From: Anaerolinea sp.
Lineage (GTDB): Bacteria; Chloroflexota; Anaerolineae; Anaerolineales; Anaerolineaceae
Length of the DNA stretch: 64,000 nt
Direction: 5' to 3'
Assembly (NCBI GenBank): GCA_020725865.1
Contig: DYEC01000004.1
Location: forward strand, 1-64,000
The notes beneath the pieces are model-generated. The model was not told where the DNA came from. It saw only the letters and a list, made by a program, of their open reading frames with translations, and ran no database searches. The translations under genes and the position numbers were made by a program. Positions 2,961 to 21,131 of the stretch are shown piece by piece (positions within the stretch are counted from its first letter, which is position 1; every line of letters starts with the position of its first letter).

Positions 2961-2984
2961 GGTAACTTAGGCAACCTTGACTTC

Positions 2985-3115
2985 ACCATTGAAAGCCGGT
3001 GCCGAAAAGGCTTAATATCCTGCCGAGGTGAGGACTTTCTAGATTGTAATCAGCCGCTTTTGTGGCGGGGTGAAAGTCTTTGCCTGGCAGTTGAAAGGCA
3101 AAGACTTTTATTTTT
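2985..3115 (+). promoter_or_regulatory. L10 leader with terminator/antiterminator switch
   Basis: The 179-bp gap before rplJ contains CTGCCGAGGTGAGGAC, typical of the L10(L12)4-binding leader. A perfect 12-bp hairpin, AAAGTCTTTGCC/GGCAAAGACTTT (3073-3084 with 3097-3108), is followed by TATTTTT and looks like an intrinsic terminator. Its 5' arm can instead pair with an upstream GACTTTC (3033-3039 with GAAAGTC 3072-3078). L10-dependent attenuation of rplJL is known in Bacillus; the same logic is inferred here. Confidence 0.8.
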
Positions 3116-3139
3116 GAAAAGGAAGGAGGTGAACGTTCA

Positions 3140-10558: not shown

Positions 10559-10586
10559 TTGACAATGTTGTTAATATCTGTACAAT
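10559..10586 (+). promoter_or_regulatory. Promoter of the lysine operon
   Basis: -35 TTGACA (10559-10564), 16-bp spacer, -10 TACAAT (10581-10586). The predicted start of transcription is about 10592-10594, only a few bases before the ATG of the leader peptide at 10597. Confidence 0.8.
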
Positions 10587-10596
10587 AATTTTCAAT

Positions 10597-10692
10597 ATGA
10601 GTACGGTGACGTTAACCTATTTACCCAAGCGAAAGAGCCCGCTACATACCCACTCTTCGGGAGAGCGGGCGTTTGACGTTTCAAAAGCCTGA
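10597..10692 (+). CDS. Leader peptide of the lysW attenuator (31 aa)
   Basis: A 31-codon frame starting almost at the predicted transcription start, with no ribosome binding site, so it would be leaderless. Lys codons AAG stand at 10627-10629 and 10633-10635 (sequence LPKRKSP), immediately before the first stem of the attenuator, and it ends at TGA 10690-10692. The placement of Lys codons relative to the RNA stems fits ribosome-stalling control by lysyl-tRNA. That it is translated is an inference. Confidence 0.6.
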   Translation: MSTVTLTYLPKRKSPLHTHSSGERAFDVSKA

Positions 10693-10752
10693 TCCATACT
10701 AAACAAGCATTTTGTAATCAAATCCCTCTCCCGTAAGGAGAGGGATTTTTTA
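10637..10752 (+). terminator. Attenuator (terminator/antiterminator) before lysW
   Basis: Stem 1: GCCCGCT (10637-10643) with AGCGGGC (10664-10670). Terminator: ATCCCTCTCC (10722-10731) with GGAGAGGGAT (10737-10746), then a T run. Antiterminator: GGGAGAG (10659-10665), inside stem 1, is complementary to CTCTCCC (10726-10732), inside the terminator. The three pairings exclude each other as in classic amino-acid attenuators. Confidence 0.75.
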
Positions 10753-10786: not shown

Positions 10787-10963
10787 ATGACAACACAATT
10801 AACCGGCCATTGCCCCGAATGTGACGCAGAACTGACCTTCAATGATGTAATTGAGGGCGAGATTGTGGTCTGCTCTGATTGCGGCGTGGACCTAGAGGTG
10901 ATCAGCTTGGAGCCGTTCGAGCTTGCACTGGCTCCGATGGAAGAAGAAGACTGGGGCGAGTAG
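10787..10963 (+). CDS. lysW: LysW amino-group carrier protein
   Basis: A 58-residue acidic protein with two zinc-binding pairs, CPEC (residue 9) and CSDC (residue 29), ending in the diagnostic EDWGE. The C-terminal glutamate gamma-carboxyl is where LysX attaches alpha-aminoadipate; LysW then carries the intermediate through LysZ, LysY, LysJ and LysK. ATG 10787 follows GAGGAGGT. It is first in the operon, 19 bp before lysX, behind a promoter and attenuator. Confidence 0.97.
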
Positions 10964-10982
10964 CCTAAAACGAGGCGGACGT

Positions 10983-11939
10983 ATGAAGATTGGGTTGTTA
11001 CTTTCACGGGTGCGTGTTGAGGAAAAGTGGTTGCTTGCCAGTTTGGAAAAGCGCGGGGTCAACTTTGAGCGCATTGATGATGGAGATATTCACTTGGAAC
11101 TTGCTGACCCGGGTTCATGGTCGCAGTATGATGTGGTTCTTGAACGCAGCCTTTCCTTTGCACGTGGGTTGTACATCACCTCGTTGCTGAATGCTTGGGG
11201 CATTCCCACCGTAAACATGGCGTATGTGGCGCAGGTGTGCGGTGATAAACTGGCGACCTCTGCCGCGCTGGCGCGGGCGGGCATTCCTCAGCCGCGCATC
11301 AAAGTAGCTTTTACTGCTGAGGCTGCTCTTCAGGCGATTGAGGAACTGGGCTATCCGGTGGTTTTAAAGCCAGTCGTGGGCTCATGGGGACGCTTACTTT
11401 CGAAAATTAATGACCGCGATGCCGCCGAAGCAATATTGGAACATAAAGAAACATTGGGTTCGTATCAGCATTCGGTGTTCTATATTCAAGAATACATTGA
11501 AAAGCCCGGGCGGGATATTCGTGCCATGGTGGTGGGAGATGAAACCATCTGTGCAATTTACCGCACATCCCCGCACTGGATTACTAACACTGCCCGCGGC
11601 GGACAGGGCGAGATTTGCCCGGTCACACCTGAATTGAATGAGTTGTGTGTTGCAGCTGCGAAAGCGGTAGGCGGTGGTGTACTTGCGGTAGATGTGCTCG
11701 AAGACCCGCAACGCGGTTATCTGGTCAATGAAGTCAATCATACGATGGAGTTCCACACGCTGGCACCCACAACTGGTGTGGATATTGCTGGCATTATCGT
11801 GGACTATGCAATTGCTGTGGCACGTGGCGATATCAAAACGGCTGTTCCATCCCAGTCTTTACCTTTCCCGATGATGTCTGTGCCGCAGGCGGTAAGCGTG
11901 TCTGTACATCCATTCCGTTTTCCGGCAGGTATGGCATGA
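10983..11939 (+). CDS. lysX: LysX, LysW-alpha-aminoadipate ligase
   Basis: A 318-residue ATP-grasp enzyme that ligates alpha-aminoadipate (or glutamate in ArgX forms) to the C-terminal Glu of LysW. Seen motifs: N-terminal [59 protein letters not shown], the substrate-loop NTARGG and the metal-binding [12 protein letters not shown]. The start is the first ATG of the frame. It overlaps lysY by 4 nt (ATGA). A close paralog ends the same operon at 20277. The ~25-residue C-terminal tail is not shared by that copy. Confidence 0.93.
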
Positions 11940-12967
11940 AAGTATCCATTGTTGGCGCTTCTGGTTATGCTGGTGGTGAGCTTTTACGCTTGTTGCTTGA
12001 TCATCCTCATGCTGAAGTGCACCAAGCGACTTCAGAAAGTCATCTGGGGGAGTATGTTTACCAGCAACATCCTAATTTGCGTAAACGAACGCAGTTGAAA
12101 TTTTCTTCGCGCCAGGTACTTGAGCCTTGTGACGTGCTGTTTCTTGCCCTGCCACATGGCGAAAGTCAGAAGAATATTGAATATTATGCCAGCCTTGCGC
12201 CGCGTCTGGTTGATCTAGCAGCAGATTTCCGTCTGCATGATCCAAAGCTTTATCGCCAATATTATGAACATGATCATACTGCTCCGGAATGGTTGGGCAA
12301 GTTTGTGTATGGATTACCGGAATTGCACAGGGAAGAAATGCGCAGTGCGCAATACATCAGTGGTGTGGGTTGCAATGCAACTGCTACGATTCTGGCGATT
12401 TACCCCTTACTGGCAAATGACTTTCTTGACCGTAGTCGTTCAATCATCGTGGAAATCAAGGTTGGTTCTTCAGAGGGCGGGGCAGCTCCTAACCCTGGCT
12501 CTCACCATCCTGAACGCAGCGGTATCATTCGCACTTTTTCTGCTTTTGGACATCGCCACACGGCTGAGGTAATACAAGAATTAGGCTTGCATGATGTTCA
12601 TTTGACAATGACTTCGGTGGATCTTGTTCGTGGTGCCTTGGCAACTGCACACGCGTTTGTTAAGCCCGGCGTCAGTGAGAAAGATTTATGGCGTGCTTAT
12701 CGAGCCTGGGCTGAAGCTGAGCCTTTTGTACGGCTGGTCAAAGACCGACGGGGTATCTACCGTGTTCCAGAGCCAAAGGTGTTGGCGGGTAGTAATTATG
12801 TGGATGTGGGTTTCGACCTTGATCCGGTAAGTGGGCATGTAGTCAGTATGGCTGCGATTGATAATCTGATGAAAGGTGCGGCAGGGTCTGCCGTACAGGC
12901 GATGAACCTGATGTGTGGTTTTGATGAAACCGCCGGACTGGAATTTGGTGGTTTACATCCGATTTAG
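11936..12967 (+). CDS. lysY: LysY, LysW-aminoadipyl phosphate reductase
   Basis: A 343-residue ArgC-type NADPH-dependent reductase. Rossmann start [18 protein letters not shown]; catalytic cysteine in [12 protein letters not shown]; a substrate-binding segment [18 protein letters not shown] typical of LysY/ArgC. It reduces LysW-aminoadipyl-6-phosphate to the semialdehyde, after LysZ. Its ATG overlaps the lysX stop and lysZ starts 11 bp later, so translation is probably coupled. Confidence 0.93.
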
Positions 12968-12978
12968 GAGGCACGGTG

Positions 12979-13782
12979 ATGTTGGTGGTTAAAATCGGTG
13001 GTTCGCAGGGTGTAGCACTAGGTCCCATTTGTGCAGACCTGGGTGCGCTTATCCAGCAGGGTCAAAAAGTGGTAGTGGTGCATGGCGGTTCGGCAGAGAC
13101 AAATGAAATATCTGCCAGATTGGGACACCCACCGCGTTTTGTCACCAGTGTTTCCGGTTTTACCAGCCGTTATACCAACCGTGCTACTCTGGAAATTTTT
13201 GCTATGGTAACCAATGGGCGTATTAATACGTTATTGGTTGAGCAATTGCAAAAATTCGGAGTAAATGCTTTTGGGCTTTCGGGTGTGGATGGCAGGCTGA
13301 TGATGGCTCAGCGCAAAGAAGCCATCCGTATTGTGGAGAACGGCAGACAACGGATGCTGCGTGATGACTATACTGGCAAAATTGAGCAGGTCAATGCGGC
13401 TTTATTACGTCTGTTGCTGGAAGCAGGTCTAACACCTGTGATCGCTCCACTGGCAATTTCTCCGGCAGGCGAGGTGGTCAATGTAGATGCTGACCGCGCA
13501 GCGGCGATGGTGGCTGGTGCTGTGCAAGCAGAGCAGTTGGTTATTCTGACGAATGTTCCAGGACTGATGCGTAACTACCCGGATGAAAATACGTTGATTC
13601 CGCACTTGCCGCGAATTGGTCTGGAGCAGGCGCTTTCCTTTGCAGAAGGACGGATGAAGAAAAAAGTGCTGGGCGCCAGCGAGGCACTTGACTTAGGTGT
13701 TTCCAAAGTGATCTTTGCCGATGGGCGTGTTGAACATCCTGTTCTGGACGCGCTGGCGGGCAAAGGTACAGTGATTTCTTAA
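12979..13782 (+). CDS. lysZ: LysZ, LysW-aminoadipate kinase
   Basis: A 267-residue amino-acid kinase (N-acetylglutamate kinase fold): VVKIGGSQG at the start, VVHGGSAETNEI, GLSGVDG, the nucleotide-site NVDADRAAAMVA and LTNVPGLM. It phosphorylates the delta-carboxyl of LysW-linked aminoadipate. ATG 12979 sits 7 nt after GGAGG; an in-frame GTG at 12976 is too close to it. The gene lies between lysY and lysJ. Confidence 0.93.
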   Translation: MLVVKIGGSQGVALGPICADLGALIQQGQKVVVVHGGSAETNEISARLGHPPRFVTSVSGFTSRYTNRATLEIFAMVTNGRINTLLVEQLQKFGVNAFGLSGVDGRLMMAQRKEAIRIVENGRQRMLRDDYTGKIEQVNAALLRLLLEAGLTPVIAPLAISPAGEVVNVDADRAAAMVAGAVQAEQLVILTNVPGLMRNYPDENTLIPHLPRIGLEQALSFAEGRMKKKVLGASEALDLGVSKVIFADGRVEHPVLDALAGKGTVIS

Positions 13783-13800
13783 AGGTTGGAGTCGGTTCAT

Positions 13801-15018
13801 ATGGTTCAAATGATTTCTACCACACAATCTGAGGTTGGGCTTTCAGAAGTCTTCCGTCAAGTTGAGCTTGTGCATAGCACGGGTGTCTATAGCAAACGCC
13901 CGGTCGTCATTGTGCGCGGTAAGGGAGCGCGTCTTTGGGATGCCGATGGGCGCGAGTACATTGACTGCGTTGGAGGGCATGGCGCGGCGAATGTTGGTCA
14001 TGCCAATCCTGCTGTGGCTCAGGCGATTGCTGAACAGGCACAGACACTTATCAGTTGCCCGGAATTATTCTTCAATGATCGGCGCGCTGCATTAGCAGAG
14101 CGCTTATGCAAGTTGACTGGCATGTCACGCCTTTTCTTGTGCAATTCTGGCACGGAAGCTGTCGAGGCGGCGATAAAATTTGCTCGTCTGCTCACCCGAA
14201 GAAGCGAAGTGGTTGCCTGTATGCGCGGCTTTCATGGGCGCACGATGGGCGCACTGTCGGCGACTTGGGATAAAAAATACCGCGCTCCGTTTGAACCGTT
14301 GGTTCCGGGTTTCCGGCATGTACCATACAATGATCTTTCGGCGCTGGATCAGGCAGTGAGTGACCAAACCGCGGCAGTAATTCTTGAAGTGGTGCAGGGT
14401 GAGGGCGGTGTCAACCTCGGCAAGGCTGAATTTCTCCAGGGCGCCCGACAGATATGCCATGAGCACGGCGCGGTGTTGATTCTTGACGAAGTACAAACCG
14501 GTTTTGGACGCACCGGCAAAATGTTTGCTTTTCAACATTATGGGCTGCAGCCGGATATTCTCTGTCTGGCGAAATCTATCGCTGGCGGGGTGCCGATGGG
14601 TGCGACACTGATGGTAGAACCGCTGGGCGAGCTTCCCTCACACGTCCACGGCTCAACTTTTGGAGGTAATCCGCTTGCCTGCGCCGCGGCCCTGGCAGCG
14701 CTCGATTATATTGAGGAAAATCAATTACCGCAACGTGCAGCTGAGCTGGGCGCGTGGTTTCGGGAACAACTTGCCCATATCGAATCGCCCTTGATGCGTG
14801 AAGTGCGTGGTTTGGGGCTGATGGTCGGTGTGGAGCTGAAACAAAAGGTAACCCCCTATTTGCAAGCGTTGATGCAGGAAGGCATCATGGCTTTGCCGGC
14901 TGGCTTGAACGTGATGCGCTTTTTGCCGCCGCTGGTGATTGAGCAGGAGGAGCTTGCTCAAGTGGTTGAAGCGGTTCGCAAAGTGTTGTCCAAGCCGCTG
15001 TCCGAAGGAGGCGAGTAA
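13801..15018 (+). CDS. lysJ: LysJ, LysW-aminoadipate semialdehyde aminotransferase
   Basis: A 405-residue class III PLP aminotransferase of the ArgD/LysJ type. Seen: [34 protein letters not shown], the PLP-phosphate and ring contacts [13 protein letters not shown], and the Schiff-base lysine in [12 protein letters not shown]. It converts the LysW-bound semialdehyde to LysW-lysine using glutamate. ATG 13801 is preferred (GGAG at 13788-13791); a TTG at 13786 would add five residues. Its stop overlaps the lysK start by one base. Confidence 0.93.
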
Positions 15019-16070
15019 TGAGAGATCCATTGGCTTTATTACCTGGTTTATTGGCATATTACAGCCCAACGGGTGAGGAAGAACAGGCAGTGAGCTTTCT
15101 CGCGGAGAGTATGGGCGCGATGGGCTTTGAAGTGTGGTGTGATGAGGCTGGCAATGTGATTGGCAGCCGCGGCAGCGGCAACCGTGAGATTTTGCTGTTG
15201 GGGCACATTGATACTGTGTCGGGAATGATCCCAGTGCGCTGGGAGGGTGATGTGATTTATGGACGCGGCGCAGTAGATGCCAAAGGTCCATTGGCTTGTT
15301 TTGTTTCTGCCGGCGCTGCGGCGCGGCTCACACCTGACTGGCGTATTACTGTAATCGGTGCAGTGGGTGAAGAAGGAGATTCTCGCGGAGCAAAACACGT
15401 CTGCCAAACTCACCCCGCTCCCAAAATGGTCGTTATCGGTGAACCGAGCGGCTGGGACCACCTGACCCTGGGATACAAAGGCAGCTATTGGTTTCGTTAT
15501 CGGCTCAGTCAGCCAATGGTTCATACTGCGGCAAATGGTGCAAGCGCTTGTGAAACCGCAGTTGACTTCTGGAATCGCCTCAGCCGTGTGGTAGCCCAAT
15601 GGAACGAGGGCAAAGAGCGTCTATTTGATCAGTTAACTCCCACGTTGCGTAGTATTCAGATGTTTCCTGATGACTACTCTGAGATAGTTGAGATGCGCGT
15701 TGGTATGCGTCTTCCACCAAAGTTAGATCAGCCTGCTTTAGAGGCTTTGCTAGACGGTGTTATGGAAACGGGTGAGCGCTTTGTAGAGGATTATCTTCCG
15801 GCTTATCGTGCTGAGAAAAACACCCCTTTGGTACGGGCTTTCCTTTCTGCCATTCGCAAAGCAGGCGGTCAGCCAGCTTTTTCATTGAAGACGGGGACTT
15901 CTGACATGAACTTGGTTGGACCGTTCTGGAATTGCCCGATTGTTGCCTATGGACCTGGCGATTCCAGTTTGGATCATACACCCTATGAACACCTGCGGAT
16001 CAGCGAATATTTAACGAGTGTGAGTGTGTTGACGCAGGCTCTGGAAATTATCATGAACACCAATGTCTGA
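15018..16070 (+). CDS. lysK: LysK, LysW-lysine hydrolase
   Basis: A 350-residue M20-family metallopeptidase that releases lysine from LysW. Metal ligands and catalytic residues are visible in order: LLGHIDTVSG (His, Asp), GRGAVDAKGPL (Asp), GAVGEEGDS (Glu-Glu), VVIGEPSGWD and a final His in SSLDHTPYEHL. The ATG overlaps the lysJ stop. In some organisms the same enzyme releases ornithine from LysW. An attenuator separates it from hcs. Confidence 0.92.
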   Translation: MRDPLALLPGLLAYYSPTGEEEQAVSFLAESMGAMGFEVWCDEAGNVIGSRGSGNREILLLGHIDTVSGMIPVRWEGDVIYGRGAVDAKGPLACFVSAGAAARLTPDWRITVIGAVGEEGDSRGAKHVCQTHPAPKMVVIGEPSGWDHLTLGYKGSYWFRYRLSQPMVHTAANGASACETAVDFWNRLSRVVAQWNEGKERLFDQLTPTLRSIQMFPDDYSEIVEMRVGMRLPPKLDQPALEALLDGVMETGERFVEDYLPAYRAEKNTPLVRAFLSAIRKAGGQPAFSLKTGTSDMNLVGPFWNCPIVAYGPGDSSLDHTPYEHLRISEYLTSVSVLTQALEIIMNTNV

Positions 16071-16091
16071 GATGAAAGTTGAGAGAAAAAG

Positions 16092-16166
16092 ATGAGTGTC
16101 TTGATGTCTTATAAGAAGTTTGGCAAGGAGAAGAAGCCGGATGTAAGTCTGGTAAGTTGCGCTTAA
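16092..16166 (+). CDS. Lys-rich leader peptide before hcs (24 aa)
   Basis: A 24-codon frame in the gap between lysK and hcs: MSVLMSYKKFGKEKKPDVSL then VSCA. Five of its 24 residues are Lys (AAG pairs at 16113-16118 and 16131-16136, a single at 16125-16127), far above chance. It ends at TAA 16164-16166, just before an intrinsic terminator whose competing stem lies inside its last codons. The purine-rich TTGAGAG upstream is a weak ribosome binding site. It is best read as the sensor of a lysine attenuator (inference). Confidence 0.75.
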   Translation: MSVLMSYKKFGKEKKPDVSLVSCA

Positions 16167-16228
16167 ACTTGTGATGAATCTAAGTGAGAGCGGGCTTACC
16201 AGAAATCTGGCAAGCCCGCTCGCTTTTT
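16137..16228 (+). terminator. Attenuator (terminator/antiterminator) before hcs
   Basis: Region 1/2: CCGGA (16137-16141) with TCTGG (16148-16152). Region 2/3 (antiterminator): TCTGGTAAG (16148-16156) with CTTACCAGA (16195-16203), nine perfect pairs. Region 3/4 (terminator): GAGCGGGCTT (16188-16197) with AAGCCCGCTC (16212-16221), extended by CCAG/CTGG and followed by GCTTTTT. This is the textbook three-way attenuator layout. Confidence 0.85.
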
Positions 16229-16279
16229 ATATCAAGTAGATTGGAAGATCGTTAGGTAAATAAATATTGACCAGAATAG

Positions 16280-17482
<1,203 letters not shown>

Positions 17483-17492
17483 GGAGGATGCG

Positions 17493-18725
17493 ATGGGACA
17501 GACATTGAGTGAACAAATTCTTTCTCACGCTGCAGGTCGAACAGTGCGCAGTGGGGATTTTGTGGTGATTGAGCCGGACGTAGTGATGAGTCATGATTCG
17601 CTGACGCCAGGGATTATCAAGATTCTGCGCCAGGAACTGGGAATTGAGAAAGTGAAGTACCCAGAACGGCTGGTGTTCTCAATGGATCATGTTGCGCCAG
17701 CTTCAACAGTTGGCACAGCGGACGCGCAAAATTTGGTACGGCGTTTCGCCCAAGAGCACAATATCCGTTTATTTGAGGTTGGGCGAGGTATCTGCCATCA
17801 GGTATTGGTGGAAGAAAAGATTGCCATGCCCGGCAAGGTAGTGATCGGTTCTGACTCACATTCGACCAGCTATGGCGCAGTGGGGGCTTTTGGAACTGGA
17901 ATGGGTTCGACGGATGTTGCTTTGGCATGGGCGACAGGAAAAACATGGTTGCGTGTACCTGAAACATTACGGGTTACCGTGAAAGGTCGTTTCCGTATCG
18001 GGGTGGATGCTAAAGACCTGGCGCTCAAGTTATGCCGGGAAATCACAATTGACGGGGCAAATTACATGACAGTCGAGTATCACGGATTGGATTGGTTGCC
18101 GTTGTCCAATCGTCAGACGCTGGCGAGTATGGCGGTCGAGATGGGTGCTAAAGCAGGTATTGTTCCGCCGACTGGGGTAATTGCAGATGATTTTCCTGCG
18201 CCGAGCTGGTTATCTATTGATCCTGAAGCAGTGTACGCTAGAACGGTGGTTGTTAACCTCAATGACCTGGAACCACAAGTCTCTGTGCCGCACGCGGTGG
18301 ATAATGTGGCTGACGTTTCAGATGTCGCAGGAACGAAAGTGAGTGTGATATTCATTGGTACTTGTACTAACGGACGTTATGAAGACTTACGTATTGCAGC
18401 AGATATTCTACGTGGGAAGCGGGTTGCGAGTGGCGTGCGTCTGATTATCACGCCTGCATCCAGCCGAGAACTTAATCGTGCGGCAATAGATGGTACATTG
18501 TCTGTTTTGCTAGAAGCAGGGGCTACGCTGACTACTCCCGGTTGCGGGATGTGTATGGGGCGGCATCAGGGAACGCTGGGCGAAGAGGACGTTTGTCTTT
18601 CAACTGCCAATCGTAATTTCAAGGGGCGCATGGGATCGCCCAAAGCCAGGATTTATTTAGCGTCGCCGGCTGTGGCAGCTGCAACAGCTCTGAAAGGCGT
18701 TATTGCTGATCCACGTGAATTATAA
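17493..18725 (+). CDS. lysT: Homoaconitase large subunit
   Basis: A 410-residue aconitase-superfamily protein. The [4Fe-4S] ligands appear as GTCTNGR (about residue 290) and PGCGMCMGRHQG (about 353-361); the active-site segment SDSHSTSYGAVGAFGTGMG is intact. With LysU it isomerises homocitrate to homoisocitrate. Its length fits the LeuC/LysT two-subunit type. ATG follows AAGGAGG; lysU starts 14 bp downstream. Isopropylmalate isomerase (LeuC) is the main alternative, but the homocitrate synthase and LysW context favours LysT. Confidence 0.9.
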   Translation: MGQTLSEQILSHAAGRTVRSGDFVVIEPDVVMSHDSLTPGIIKILRQELGIEKVKYPERLVFSMDHVAPASTVGTADAQNLVRRFAQEHNIRLFEVGRGICHQVLVEEKIAMPGKVVIGSDSHSTSYGAVGAFGTGMGSTDVALAWATGKTWLRVPETLRVTVKGRFRIGVDAKDLALKLCREITIDGANYMTVEYHGLDWLPLSNRQTLASMAVEMGAKAGIVPPTGVIADDFPAPSWLSIDPEAVYARTVVVNLNDLEPQVSVPHAVDNVADVSDVAGTKVSVIFIGTCTNGRYEDLRIAADILRGKRVASGVRLIITPASSRELNRAAIDGTLSVLLEAGATLTTPGCGMCMGRHQGTLGEEDVCLSTANRNFKGRMGSPKARIYLASPAVAAATALKGVIADPREL

Positions 18726-18739
18726 GCGAGGAGGATAAC

Positions 18740-19234
18740 ATGGCTAGAGTATGGAAATTTGGTGCAGATATTGATACCGATCAGATTGTACCCGGTCGTT
18801 ATGCCCCTTATATGCGTCCGGATGCGGATGTGGGTGAAGCTGCATTTATTGAAGCACGACCAGAGTTCGCGAAAACTGCCCAACCGGGGGATGTGATTGT
18901 AGCGTTGGAGAATTTTGGATGTGGCTCCTCGCGCGAGTATGCTGTAGAAGCTTTGCGGCGGCGAAAAGTAGGAGCAATTTTTGCGCTGAGTTTTGCGCGA
19001 ATTTTTTACCGAAATGCGCTCAATCTAGGCATTCCGCTTTTTCAAGCACCAGAGATCGTTGAGGCACTTCAGGATGGTGACGAGATTACGCTGGATATTC
19101 CCAATGGGCGGTTGATACGGGGGGAGCAAGTCTTTCAGTTGCCGGAACTACCGAAATTTGCCCGAGATATTCTCTCGGCTGGCGGCATTATTCCCTATGT
19201 CCGTAAGTATGGGCGGTTTCCAGGAGAGGCGTGA
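18740..19234 (+). CDS. lysU: Homoaconitase small subunit
   Basis: A 164-residue swivel-domain protein of the LeuD/LysU type: FGADIDTDQIVPGRY at the N-terminus and GCGSSREYAVEALR, which closes over the active site of the large subunit. It pairs with LysT. GAGGAGG lies before the ATG and only 3 bp separate it from the next gene. Confidence 0.91.
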   Translation: MARVWKFGADIDTDQIVPGRYAPYMRPDADVGEAAFIEARPEFAKTAQPGDVIVALENFGCGSSREYAVEALRRRKVGAIFALSFARIFYRNALNLGIPLFQAPEIVEALQDGDEITLDIPNGRLIRGEQVFQLPELPKFARDILSAGGIIPYVRKYGRFPGEA

Positions 19235-19237
19235 GAA

Positions 19238-20257
19238 ATGTTTTCATTATGTGTGATTGAAGGGGATGGCATTGGGAAAGAGGTGATCCCAGCGGCGGTT
19301 GAGGTGTTGAAAGCTGTTATTCCAGATTTGTACATTCACGCGGCGCAGGCAGGATGGCAGACTTTTCAAGAGCACGGAACTTCCGTGCCGACTGAAACTC
19401 TCACCGCAGTGCGAAAATGCGGTGCAGCACTGTTTGGGGCAGTTTCTTCGCCTTCTGGCAAAGTAGAGGGCTATCGCAGTGCTATTTTGACCCTGCGCCA
19501 AGAGCTGGATTTATATGCAAATGTCCGTCCGGTGCGTAGCCTGCCGCGCCTTTCGCCCCGGCAGGATGTAAATCTGGTCATCATGCGCGAGAATACCGAA
19601 GACTTATATGTCGGACGCGAGCGCATGGAAGAGGATAGTGCTGTGGCTGAGCGAGTGATCACGAGACGTGCGTCTCAGCGTATTGGAAGACGTGCAGTGG
19701 AAGTACTTCGTATAGAGAACTTTCAGCGGCTGACCATCGTTCACAAAGCCAACATTCTACCACTTACTGATGGGCTGTTTCGTGACACGGTGTGTGCTAC
19801 TGTGCAGGAAATGCGTCATCCGGGGGAGAATTGGGCTGTAGATGAGCTGCTGGTGGATACGGCAGCTTATCAACTGGTCAGCCATCCGCACACTTTTGGG
19901 GTACTGGTGACTACAAATCTGTTTGGCGATATTCTTTCAGACGAAGCGGCTTTCTGGTGTGGAGGGATGGGGTTGGCTCCCTCGCTTAATTGGGGGGATG
20001 AGATTGCTATTGCTGAGCCTGTGCATGGTTCGGCGCCGGATATTGCTGGCAGAGGCATTGCCAACCCAATCGCGGCGATCTTAAGCGCCGCTCTACTGGT
20101 GCGCTATTATTGGAATCTTCCCCAAGTTGCCTGGCAAATTGAGAATGCAGTTCGGCGGGCGCTGGAGTTTGATATACAAGTCTCGGGTAGCCAGTTAAAA
20201 CCAGATATACCAACCGAGGCGGTTCTCAAGGCAATTCTTACGCGGTTGAACGATTGA
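19238..20257 (+). CDS. Homoisocitrate dehydrogenase
   Basis: A 339-residue beta-decarboxylating dehydrogenase: CVIEGDGIGKEVIPAAV, the substrate-specificity region GAVSSPSGKVEGYRSAILTLRQ, LYANVRPVRS, VHKANILPLTDGLF, TTNLFGDILSDEA and EPVHGSAPDIAG. It oxidises homoisocitrate to 2-oxoadipate, the keto acid that a LysN-type aminotransferase then converts to aminoadipate. The region at residues ~67-85 resembles Thermus homoisocitrate dehydrogenase more than LeuB. Some of these enzymes also accept isocitrate. Confidence 0.9.
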   Translation: MFSLCVIEGDGIGKEVIPAAVEVLKAVIPDLYIHAAQAGWQTFQEHGTSVPTETLTAVRKCGAALFGAVSSPSGKVEGYRSAILTLRQELDLYANVRPVRSLPRLSPRQDVNLVIMRENTEDLYVGRERMEEDSAVAERVITRRASQRIGRRAVEVLRIENFQRLTIVHKANILPLTDGLFRDTVCATVQEMRHPGENWAVDELLVDTAAYQLVSHPHTFGVLVTTNLFGDILSDEAAFWCGGMGLAPSLNWGDEIAIAEPVHGSAPDIAGRGIANPIAAILSAALLVRYYWNLPQVAWQIENAVRRALEFDIQVSGSQLKPDIPTEAVLKAILTRLND

Positions 20258-20276
20258 ACCGATTTGGAGGTAGATG

Positions 20277-21131
20277 ATGAAAATCGCTGTATTATATTCA
20301 CGAGTGCGTGTTGAGGAAAAATGGCTGTTTGAGGCACTGGAAAAACGCGCAATACCTTATGATCGCCTTGATGACCGGGAGGTGGCATTGCGGTTATCTG
20401 ATTCTTCAGTATGGACGCAGTACGATGTAGTGATTGAACGCAGCCTTTCCTTCAAGAACGGTTTGTACATCTCACAGGTTTTGAATGCTTGGGGGATTCC
20501 CACGGTTAACATGGCGCACGTTGCTGCTACCTGTGGCGATAAGCTGGCGACTTCGGTAGCGCTTCAACGCGCTGGTGTGCCGCAGCCGGAAGTTTGGGTG
20601 GCTTTTACTCCTGAGGCTGCGCTGGAAACAATGGAACGCATCGGATATCCGGTGGTTCTTAAGCCGGTCATTGGTTCCTGGGGTCGGCTGTTGGCAAAAA
20701 TCAACGACCGCGAGGCTGCCGAAGCGATCCTTGAGCACAAGGACGTGTTGGGGTCGTTTCAGCATTCGGTGTTTTATATTCAGGAATATATTAAAAAGCC
20801 TGGGCGGGATATTCGTTCTTTCGTTATCGGTGACCGCACGGTGTGTGCGATTTATCGCAGTTCGCCTCATTGGATCACCAACACTGCTCGCGGCGGTAGA
20901 GCAGAAATTTGCCCGGTGACACCAGAGCTAGATCGCATCAGCGTTGCAGCGGCACAAGCTGTGGGTGGGGGAGTGATTGCGATAGATATCCTTGAAGACC
21001 CGATACGCGGTTATCTTGTGAATGAAGTCAATCACACAATGGAGTATCACTCAACCGTTCCACTAACCGGTGTGGATATTCCCGGTATGATTGTAGACTA
21101 TGCACTGTCGCTAGTACCGCAAAGGGTGTAA
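20277..21131 (+). CDS. Second LysX/ArgX-type LysW ligase
   Basis: A 284-residue ATP-grasp paralog of LysX at 10983. The two share most residues by eye, including [81 protein letters not shown] and [12 protein letters not shown]. It lacks the C-terminal tail of the first copy. ATG 20277 (6 nt after GGAGG) is preferred over 20274. One copy may act on aminoadipate and the other on glutamate (ArgX role), as in archaea that use LysW for both pathways; which does which cannot be told here. Last gene of the operon. Confidence 0.88.

Follow-up and report, generated by a model that had tools for sequence, protein, structure and literature searches.

A putative lysine-codon attenuator between lysK and hcs in an Anaerolinea lysine operon and its scaffold family in Chloroflexota

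The gap between lysK and hcs in the lysine operon of the window (the whole 64,000-nucleotide stretch of Anaerolinea sp. DNA analysed here) carries an element that very probably, on the evidence of its sequence and of comparison with relatives, acts as a ribosome-mediated transcription attenuator sensing charged tRNA-Lys. Judged by sequence, it belongs to an RNA scaffold family found across the phylum, in which the sensor codons (Lys, Arg or Pro) match the downstream gene. Its features and those of the surrounding operon are the following.

10787 to 16070, + strand: front half of the operon, with lysW (10787-10963), lysX, lysY, lysZ, lysJ and lysK
16092 to 16166, + strand: leader ORF, MSVLMSYKKFGKEKKPDVSLVSCA and stop codon, 24 aa, with an alternative in-frame ATG at 16104
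16113 to 16118, + strand: first tandem Lys pair, AAG AAG, read from the sequence
16123 to 16126, + strand: region 1', GCAA, 5' side of the outer 1:2 pairing, lying within the sensor codons
16131 to 16136, + strand: second tandem Lys pair, AAG AAG, directly 5' of region 1
16137 to 16142, + strand: region 1, CCGGAT, forming the codons Pro-Asp, with the 1:2 letters CCGGA at 16137-16141
16148 to 16156, + strand: region 2, TCTGGTAAG, with region 1 or region 3 as alternative partners
16157 to 16160, + strand: region 2', TTGC, partner of region 1'
16188 to 16228, + strand: intrinsic terminator, arms GAGCGGGCTT (16188-16197) and AAGCCCGCTC (16212-16221), T5 at 16224-16228
16195 to 16203, + strand: region 3, CTTACCAGA, pairs with region 2 as antiterminator and shares bases with the 5' terminator arm
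16298 to 17482, + strand: hcs, homocitrate synthase, the putatively controlled gene (TIGR02146, 481.7 bits, cut-off 413.55)
17493 to 21131, + strand: the downstream genes lysT, lysU, homoisocitrate dehydrogenase and lysX2

The 24-aa peptide with five Lys that a preliminary description had placed in the lysK-hcs gap is present letter for letter: five of the 24 codons encode Lys, all as AAG (16113, 16116, 16125, 16131 and 16134), and KEKKPD-x-x-LVSC is kept in the leader peptides of two near relatives (L005 and L006). The three pairings claimed there can likewise be read in the sequence, with CCGGA complementary to region 2 (1:2), nine perfect pairs between TCTGGTAAG and CTTACCAGA (2:3, antiterminator), and the arms GAGCGGGCTT and AAGCCCGCTC followed by the T5 run (3:4, terminator). 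Region 3 is common to the 9-bp 2:3 and the 10-bp 3:4 helices, so that antiterminator and terminator are mutually exclusive, and the 1:2 hairpin overlaps the sensor codons. The fold of the 201 nt from 16060 to 16260 had an energy of -61.7 kcal/mol compared to a shuffle mean of -44.1 (z = -4.7; 0/200 shuffles), its minimum-energy form containing the 2:3 pairing and its centroid 1:2 with 3:4. The terminator hairpin was absent from a simple terminator scan, which took loops of 3-8 bases; the outer stem encloses 14.

The genes flanking the element are lysine genes of the AAA pathway based on NCBIfam annotations, among which lysJ, lysU and homoisocitrate dehydrogenase were named from best matches that stay under the equivalog cut-offs; lysW was identified by the EDWGE end of its sequence and the Pfam match of a homologue. 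The ribosome-binding site of the leader is weak (GAGAG before 16092) and the best promoter score nearby is 8/12, so the function of the element depends on read-through from lysK. The switch sits inside the operon, devoid of a strong promoter of its own, and is thus probably fed by transcription through lysK. Across the leaders collected, a promoter scoring at least 10/12 lay within 260 nt before the leader stop in 96 of 137 cases, compared to 14 of 137 on the reverse strand.

In the proposed mechanism, RNA polymerase arriving from lysK would be followed through the leader by a ribosome translating its 24 codons. Under lysine shortage, this ribosome would wait at the Lys codons adjoining region 1 and mask it, leaving region 2 free to pair with region 3, so that no terminator would form and hcs-lysT-lysU-hicdh-lysX2 would be transcribed. 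When lysine is ample, the ribosome would reach the stop codon just past region 2, which starts eight bases beyond it, and cover region 2 (or leave, allowing 1:2 to form); 3:4 would then form and transcription would end before hcs. Taking the usual size of a ribosome, one with AAG 16134 in its A site would have its leading edge near 16146, so that region 1 would be masked and region 2, from 16148, would stay free, and one at the stop codon (16164) would cover about 16146-16176 and mask region 2. Region 1 would stay exposed with the ribosome waiting at the first Lys pair (16113-16118), which would count against the model. We infer leader translation, stalling, a lysine response and co-transcription across lysK-hcs, and, from the anatomy and the comparison, lysine feedback on hcs-lysT-lysU-hicdh-lysX2.

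At E 1e-80, hcs was detected in 19 of the 147 genomes searched from the window's family and in 140 of the 298 from the class, 159 places together. Upstream regions were examined for 127 of them; L022 was dropped because its contig begins within hcs, and the remaining 31 places lie outside the set. A region counted as positive if a short ORF no more than 110 nt from a terminator had at least four Lys in 12 codons; on the forward strand 32 of the 127 regions qualified (95 negative), and on the reverse strand one. The same rule applied to other residues gave 22 (Arg), 14 (Ser) and 12 (Ala) of 127 on the forward strand, and 6, 5 and 4, respectively, on the reverse strand. By eye, Lys-rich leaders were picked in 53 of the 127 regions, and 52 of these were accompanied by a strong terminator, the exception (L005) having a spacer before the T run. 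As this set of 53 was selected for Lys, it was kept out of the codon-target statistics. These counts bear on the view that an ordinary intrinsic terminator merely ends lysW-lysK, with hcs transcribed from its own promoter and the K-rich ORF incidental. The strong hairpin with its T run agrees with such a view, which is nevertheless very unlikely considering the strand bias with which K-rich ORFs adjoin terminators, the segment upstream that is complementary, in a lineage-specific manner, to the 5' arm of the terminator, and sensor codons that follow the target amino acid (both below).

Pairing was assessed on an alignment (A1) of 42 of the 53 Lys leaders, where CCGGAC, GTCTGG and CCAGAC formed nearly constant blocks. 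In the terminator stem (3:4), all 11 pairs showed changes on both sides, with 98 double-changed cells (0/500 shuffles, these shuffles leaving the relatedness among leaders in place). Standard pairs occupied 78.1% of the cells in the 1:2 helix and 77.5% in the 2:3 helix, and their both-side-changed pairs were reached by 268 and 344 of 500 shuffles, respectively, a weak classical covariation explained by the near invariance of the core letters. For 2:3, the region 2 of each leader was therefore also folded against its own region 3 and those of other leaders, in 39 clusters: the own-partner sum was -756.7 compared to a permutation mean of -603.8 (sd = 17.8; 0/20000 permutations), with the own partner leading in 6 of 39 rows, within the top five in 18, and as low as rank 33 in some. 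For the outer 1:2 hairpin, the sensor strand was paired with its own partner beyond region 2 at a mean of -18.96, compared to -13.98 with swapped partners (50 representatives; z = -10.3; 0/20000). This held within the Lys (z = -6.3; 0/20000), Arg (z = -4.6; 0/20000) and Pro types (z = -3.2; 15/20000); the reversed-strand control still reached z = -2.8 (65/20000), so part of the signal reflects composition. In the alignment check that the preliminary description had suggested, Lys-rich leaders with terminators thus recurred before hcs and region 2 favoured its own region 3. Its lysine-attenuator interpretation is supported, with the addition of a wider family with exchangeable codons and of a probable second attenuator before lysW.

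The extent of the family was searched with covariance models. R1 was trained on Lys leaders that precede hcs, in some cases with lysW in between. At E 0.01 it matched in 154 of the 298 class genomes, among them some in which hcs was not detected at 1e-80 (e.g. G178, G323 and G155). A second alignment (A2) of 36 leaders of three types, excluding the window, shared the core GCCGGACC-N-GGTCTGGATAG ... CCAGCTnTCCAGAC, and the model derived from it (R2) found the scaffold CCGGAC – GTCTGG – CCAGAC terminator in 159 of 298 class genomes at E 0.001. Over 301 phylum genomes and at E 1e-4, R2 matched in 40. Of these, 29 lie outside the class, and many of the 29 have a Lys leader directly before hcs (L416-L428, L432 and L433). 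In a search of the window's whole genome, R2, trained without the window, gave the window site 52.6 bits (E 1.1e-12), the second-best match reaching 14.9 bits; the R1 score of 65.6 bits comes from a model whose training included the window. Among 80 named hcs loci, 56 had an R1 match, and matches lay on the coding strand in 66 of 66 (R1) and 66 of 67 (R2) cases. In the 56 loci, the next lys gene downstream was hcs (46), lysX (4), lysX2 (3) or lysW (3), and the next upstream was lysK (7), lysZ (1) or none within the stretch covered (48). The order lysK-attenuator-hcs was thus found in seven loci, all from close kin (L132-L137 and L142, including Leptolinea tardivitalis and Leptolinea sp. HRD-7). 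Two tandem attenuators were observed before the same lysine genes in ten loci (L165, L171, L174, L175, L181, L188, L138, L145, L155 and L156).

From the R1 and R2 lists, 92 unread match regions were taken before their peptides were seen. Their downstream targets were lysW-lysX, argC, argG, proS, or a metallophosphoesterase gene followed by proS, the last arrangement being preceded by a Pro-codon leader in L258, L267, L278 and L332. Adding 19 loci from the phylum search gave a codon-target set of 111 loci, among which fall 27 of the 36 A2 training leaders; a target could be assigned for 101, among which a codon-neutral rule yielded a leader for 85 and none for 16. Each leader was scored by whichever of Lys, Arg or Pro was most frequent over the 14 codons preceding region 1, ties counting as misses. 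Lys codons were found before lysW, lysX or hcs, Arg codons before argC and argG, and Pro codons before proS, the sensor codon agreeing with the target in 73 of 85 leaders (Lys 40/44, Arg 23/30, Pro 10/11). After removal of duplicates the match was 71 of 83, for a permutation mean of 31.1 and a maximum of 50 in 20000 permutations. The misfits were L274, L288, L333, L338, L343, L345, L352, L354, L356, L357, L362 and L374; two of them (L343 and L374), which carry Arg-type leaders before lysW-lysX, possibly belong to Arg-type LysW clusters.

A metabolite-binding riboswitch sensing lysine directly, independently of translation, would also place a conserved structured leader before lysine genes. This is extremely improbable: no riboswitch was among the Rfam matches to the window stretch, even at E 10, and genes for Arg and Pro are preceded by the same scaffold carrying different sensor codons, a pattern that one binding pocket would leave unexplained. 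In a search against Rfam 15, no family matched the window element at gathering score, the lysine riboswitch (L box, RF00168) covariance model included, six related loci had no match at E 1, and the window stretch gave five weak matches, the best at E 0.056, far below gathering scores. The lysine riboswitch resembles the element as RNA-level feedback control of lysine genes, and differs from it by binding its ligand directly.

Over 83 leaders, the last sensor codon lies a median of 5 nt from region 1 (at most 6 nt in 62 of 83). In 74 of 85 leaders GTCTGG is followed by a single base and then the stop codon, under an ORF-picking rule that itself demanded a stop near region 2. Region 1 is read in the same frame in 75 of the 85 leaders, and Pro-Asp and Ser-Gly residues are conserved in many of them, as expected if these residues formed a nascent-peptide arrest motif that stalls the ribosome, with the sensed amino acid secondary. 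Such an arrest is highly improbable, as the region 1 letters are kept in another frame in the remaining 10 of 85 leaders (e.g. in peptides ending in PESQT), which speaks for conservation of the RNA over that of the peptide, and as the PD and SG codons are the pairing letters CCGGAC and TCTGG themselves.

Beyond attenuation in the window, we lean, if only slightly, towards a broader proposal, in which one homologous Chloroflexota attenuator RNA would have been copied between operons and retuned through its sensor codons and pairing strand only. Lysine, arginine (argC, argG and perhaps also carA and LysW-type clusters), prolyl-tRNA synthetase and perhaps export genes would all be served by this one standard switch, and the AAA operon of the window's family would carry two in series, one for Lys and Arg (shared LysW enzymes) and one for Lys only (AAA branch). 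Pro-codon control of a prolyl-tRNA synthetase would be of interest by itself. Further Pro-codon leaders were observed before proS or metallophosphoesterase-proS in L330, L340 and L377. Observations made by eye include the scaffold followed by a HicB-like ORF and a carA-like gene in L271, and before LysE-like exporter genes in L430, with Lys codons, and L431, with Gln-rich codons.

Upstream of lysW, the following additional features were found in the window.

10559 to 10586, + strand: promoter-like TTGACA-16-TACAAT, 11/12 matches, before the second leader
10597 to 10692, + strand: second, nearly leaderless leader ORF, MSTVTLTYLPKRKSPLHTHSSGERAFDVSKA, holding Lys-Arg-Lys
10635 to 10748, + strand: probable second attenuator, region 1 GAGCCCGCT (10635-10643), region 2 CGGGAGAG/AGCGGGC (10658-10670), region 3 CTCTCCCG (10726-10733), terminator 10720-10748

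Based on this sequence, a mixed Lys/Arg attenuator probably precedes lysW in the window, with modest own-versus-permuted support (p = 0.0115, n = 13). The second leader ORF (MSTVTLTYLPKRKSPL...) begins 10 nt after the -10 box. Among the 30 family lysW loci read, of 53 listed, eight besides the window had an in-frame start at the same 10-nt spacing (L386-L388, L390, L391, L394, L402 and L404) and L407 had one at 9 nt; L398 and others had no such start, and more than half of the 30 had no such leader. A leaderless start was rejected as a general rule, promoter-to-start distances being widely spread and constant only among lysW leaders of the window's family. These leaders mix Lys and Arg (KRK, KRAR, KKRS), and two genomes without hcs had RVRKDRR and MRRPL. 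The expectation of purely Arg lysW leaders in genomes without hcs held only in part, as several keep Lys.

In Sulfolobus and Thermococcus, LysW enzymes are shared between Lys and Arg (or ornithine) synthesis, according to the available part of PMC10433800. Each of 13 family genomes, including the window's, had one lysZ/argB homologue (E 1e-10) and argG over the cut-off. We infer that the front half of the operon serves Lys and Arg, and that the rear half works for Lys alone; with a front half serving both amino acids, placing a Lys-only switch ahead of the AAA branch would be reasonable. Such an internal switch would explain how AAA and lysine synthesis could be lowered without starving arginine synthesis where both use the same LysW enzymes. 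The two LysX copies of the window, compared for a LysX/ArgX signature that might tell whether the front LysX makes LysW-glutamate, are 72% identical and read NEVNHTMEF and NEVNHTMEY. In seven family loci (L392, L393, L395-L397, L400 and L401), a frame ending just before lysW resembled by eye the C-terminus of argininosuccinate lyase, which hints at an arginine role of the LysW cluster.

Attenuation by leader peptides is itself already known. Attenuators of the trp/his type combine a short leader ORF rich in codons for the end product with alternative RNA pairings and an intrinsic terminator. Those of Proteobacteria and Actinobacteria (trp, his, leu, thr, ilv, phe) share with the window element the product-codon leader ORF, the alternative 1:2, 2:3 and 3:4 pairings, the intrinsic terminator and the place before biosynthetic genes; unlike them, the Chloroflexota scaffold has one nearly constant core common to different amino acids. 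In lysine synthesis, Tsubouchi and colleagues reportedly described, about 2005, a Lys-codon leader peptide and transcription attenuation before the AAA-pathway genes of the Thermus thermophilus lysine cluster, an arrangement that the window element would resemble. Leader-peptide attenuators are usually viewed as separate inventions for each operon. One RNA core reused with different codons makes it possible to read from comparison alone that sensor codons set specificity, the Lys/Arg/Pro exchange amounting to a natural codon-swap experiment, and supplies Lys, Arg and Pro leader classes with no Rfam family match in the loci tested.

The attenuator motifs named in the available portion of PMC3766115 are His, Leu, Thr and Trp, plus Ile/Val and Phe, with none for Lys, Arg or Pro in that portion, and a word search of the accessible text of a 2012 review of Thermus lysine genes (PMC3356886) gave no mention of attenuation. 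The orf34-speF leader of Salmonella is alike in that arginine is sensed through ribosome pausing at a run of Arg codons within a short leader ORF; it differs in acting through Rho termination, RNase G and translation, and in its target, ornithine decarboxylase instead of arginine synthesis (both from the part of PMC6386406 available). No description of the scaffold family was found among the titles and abstract starts that searches of open-licence papers listed and, as far as that literature was searched, the Chloroflexota family, the Lys/Arg/Pro exchange on one scaffold and the internal placement are new.

Two minor observations concern other sequences. Genes for hcs 68-74% identical to that of the window occurred in MAG records named Blastocatellia, Planctomycetaceae and Phycisphaerales (L155, L172, L178 and L180), through either mis-binning or transfer, and L155 has both hcs and an attenuator. 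In the window itself, a ribosomal protein L10 leader (RF00557) was detected at 2968-3120, with 50.1 bits for a gathering score of 44.
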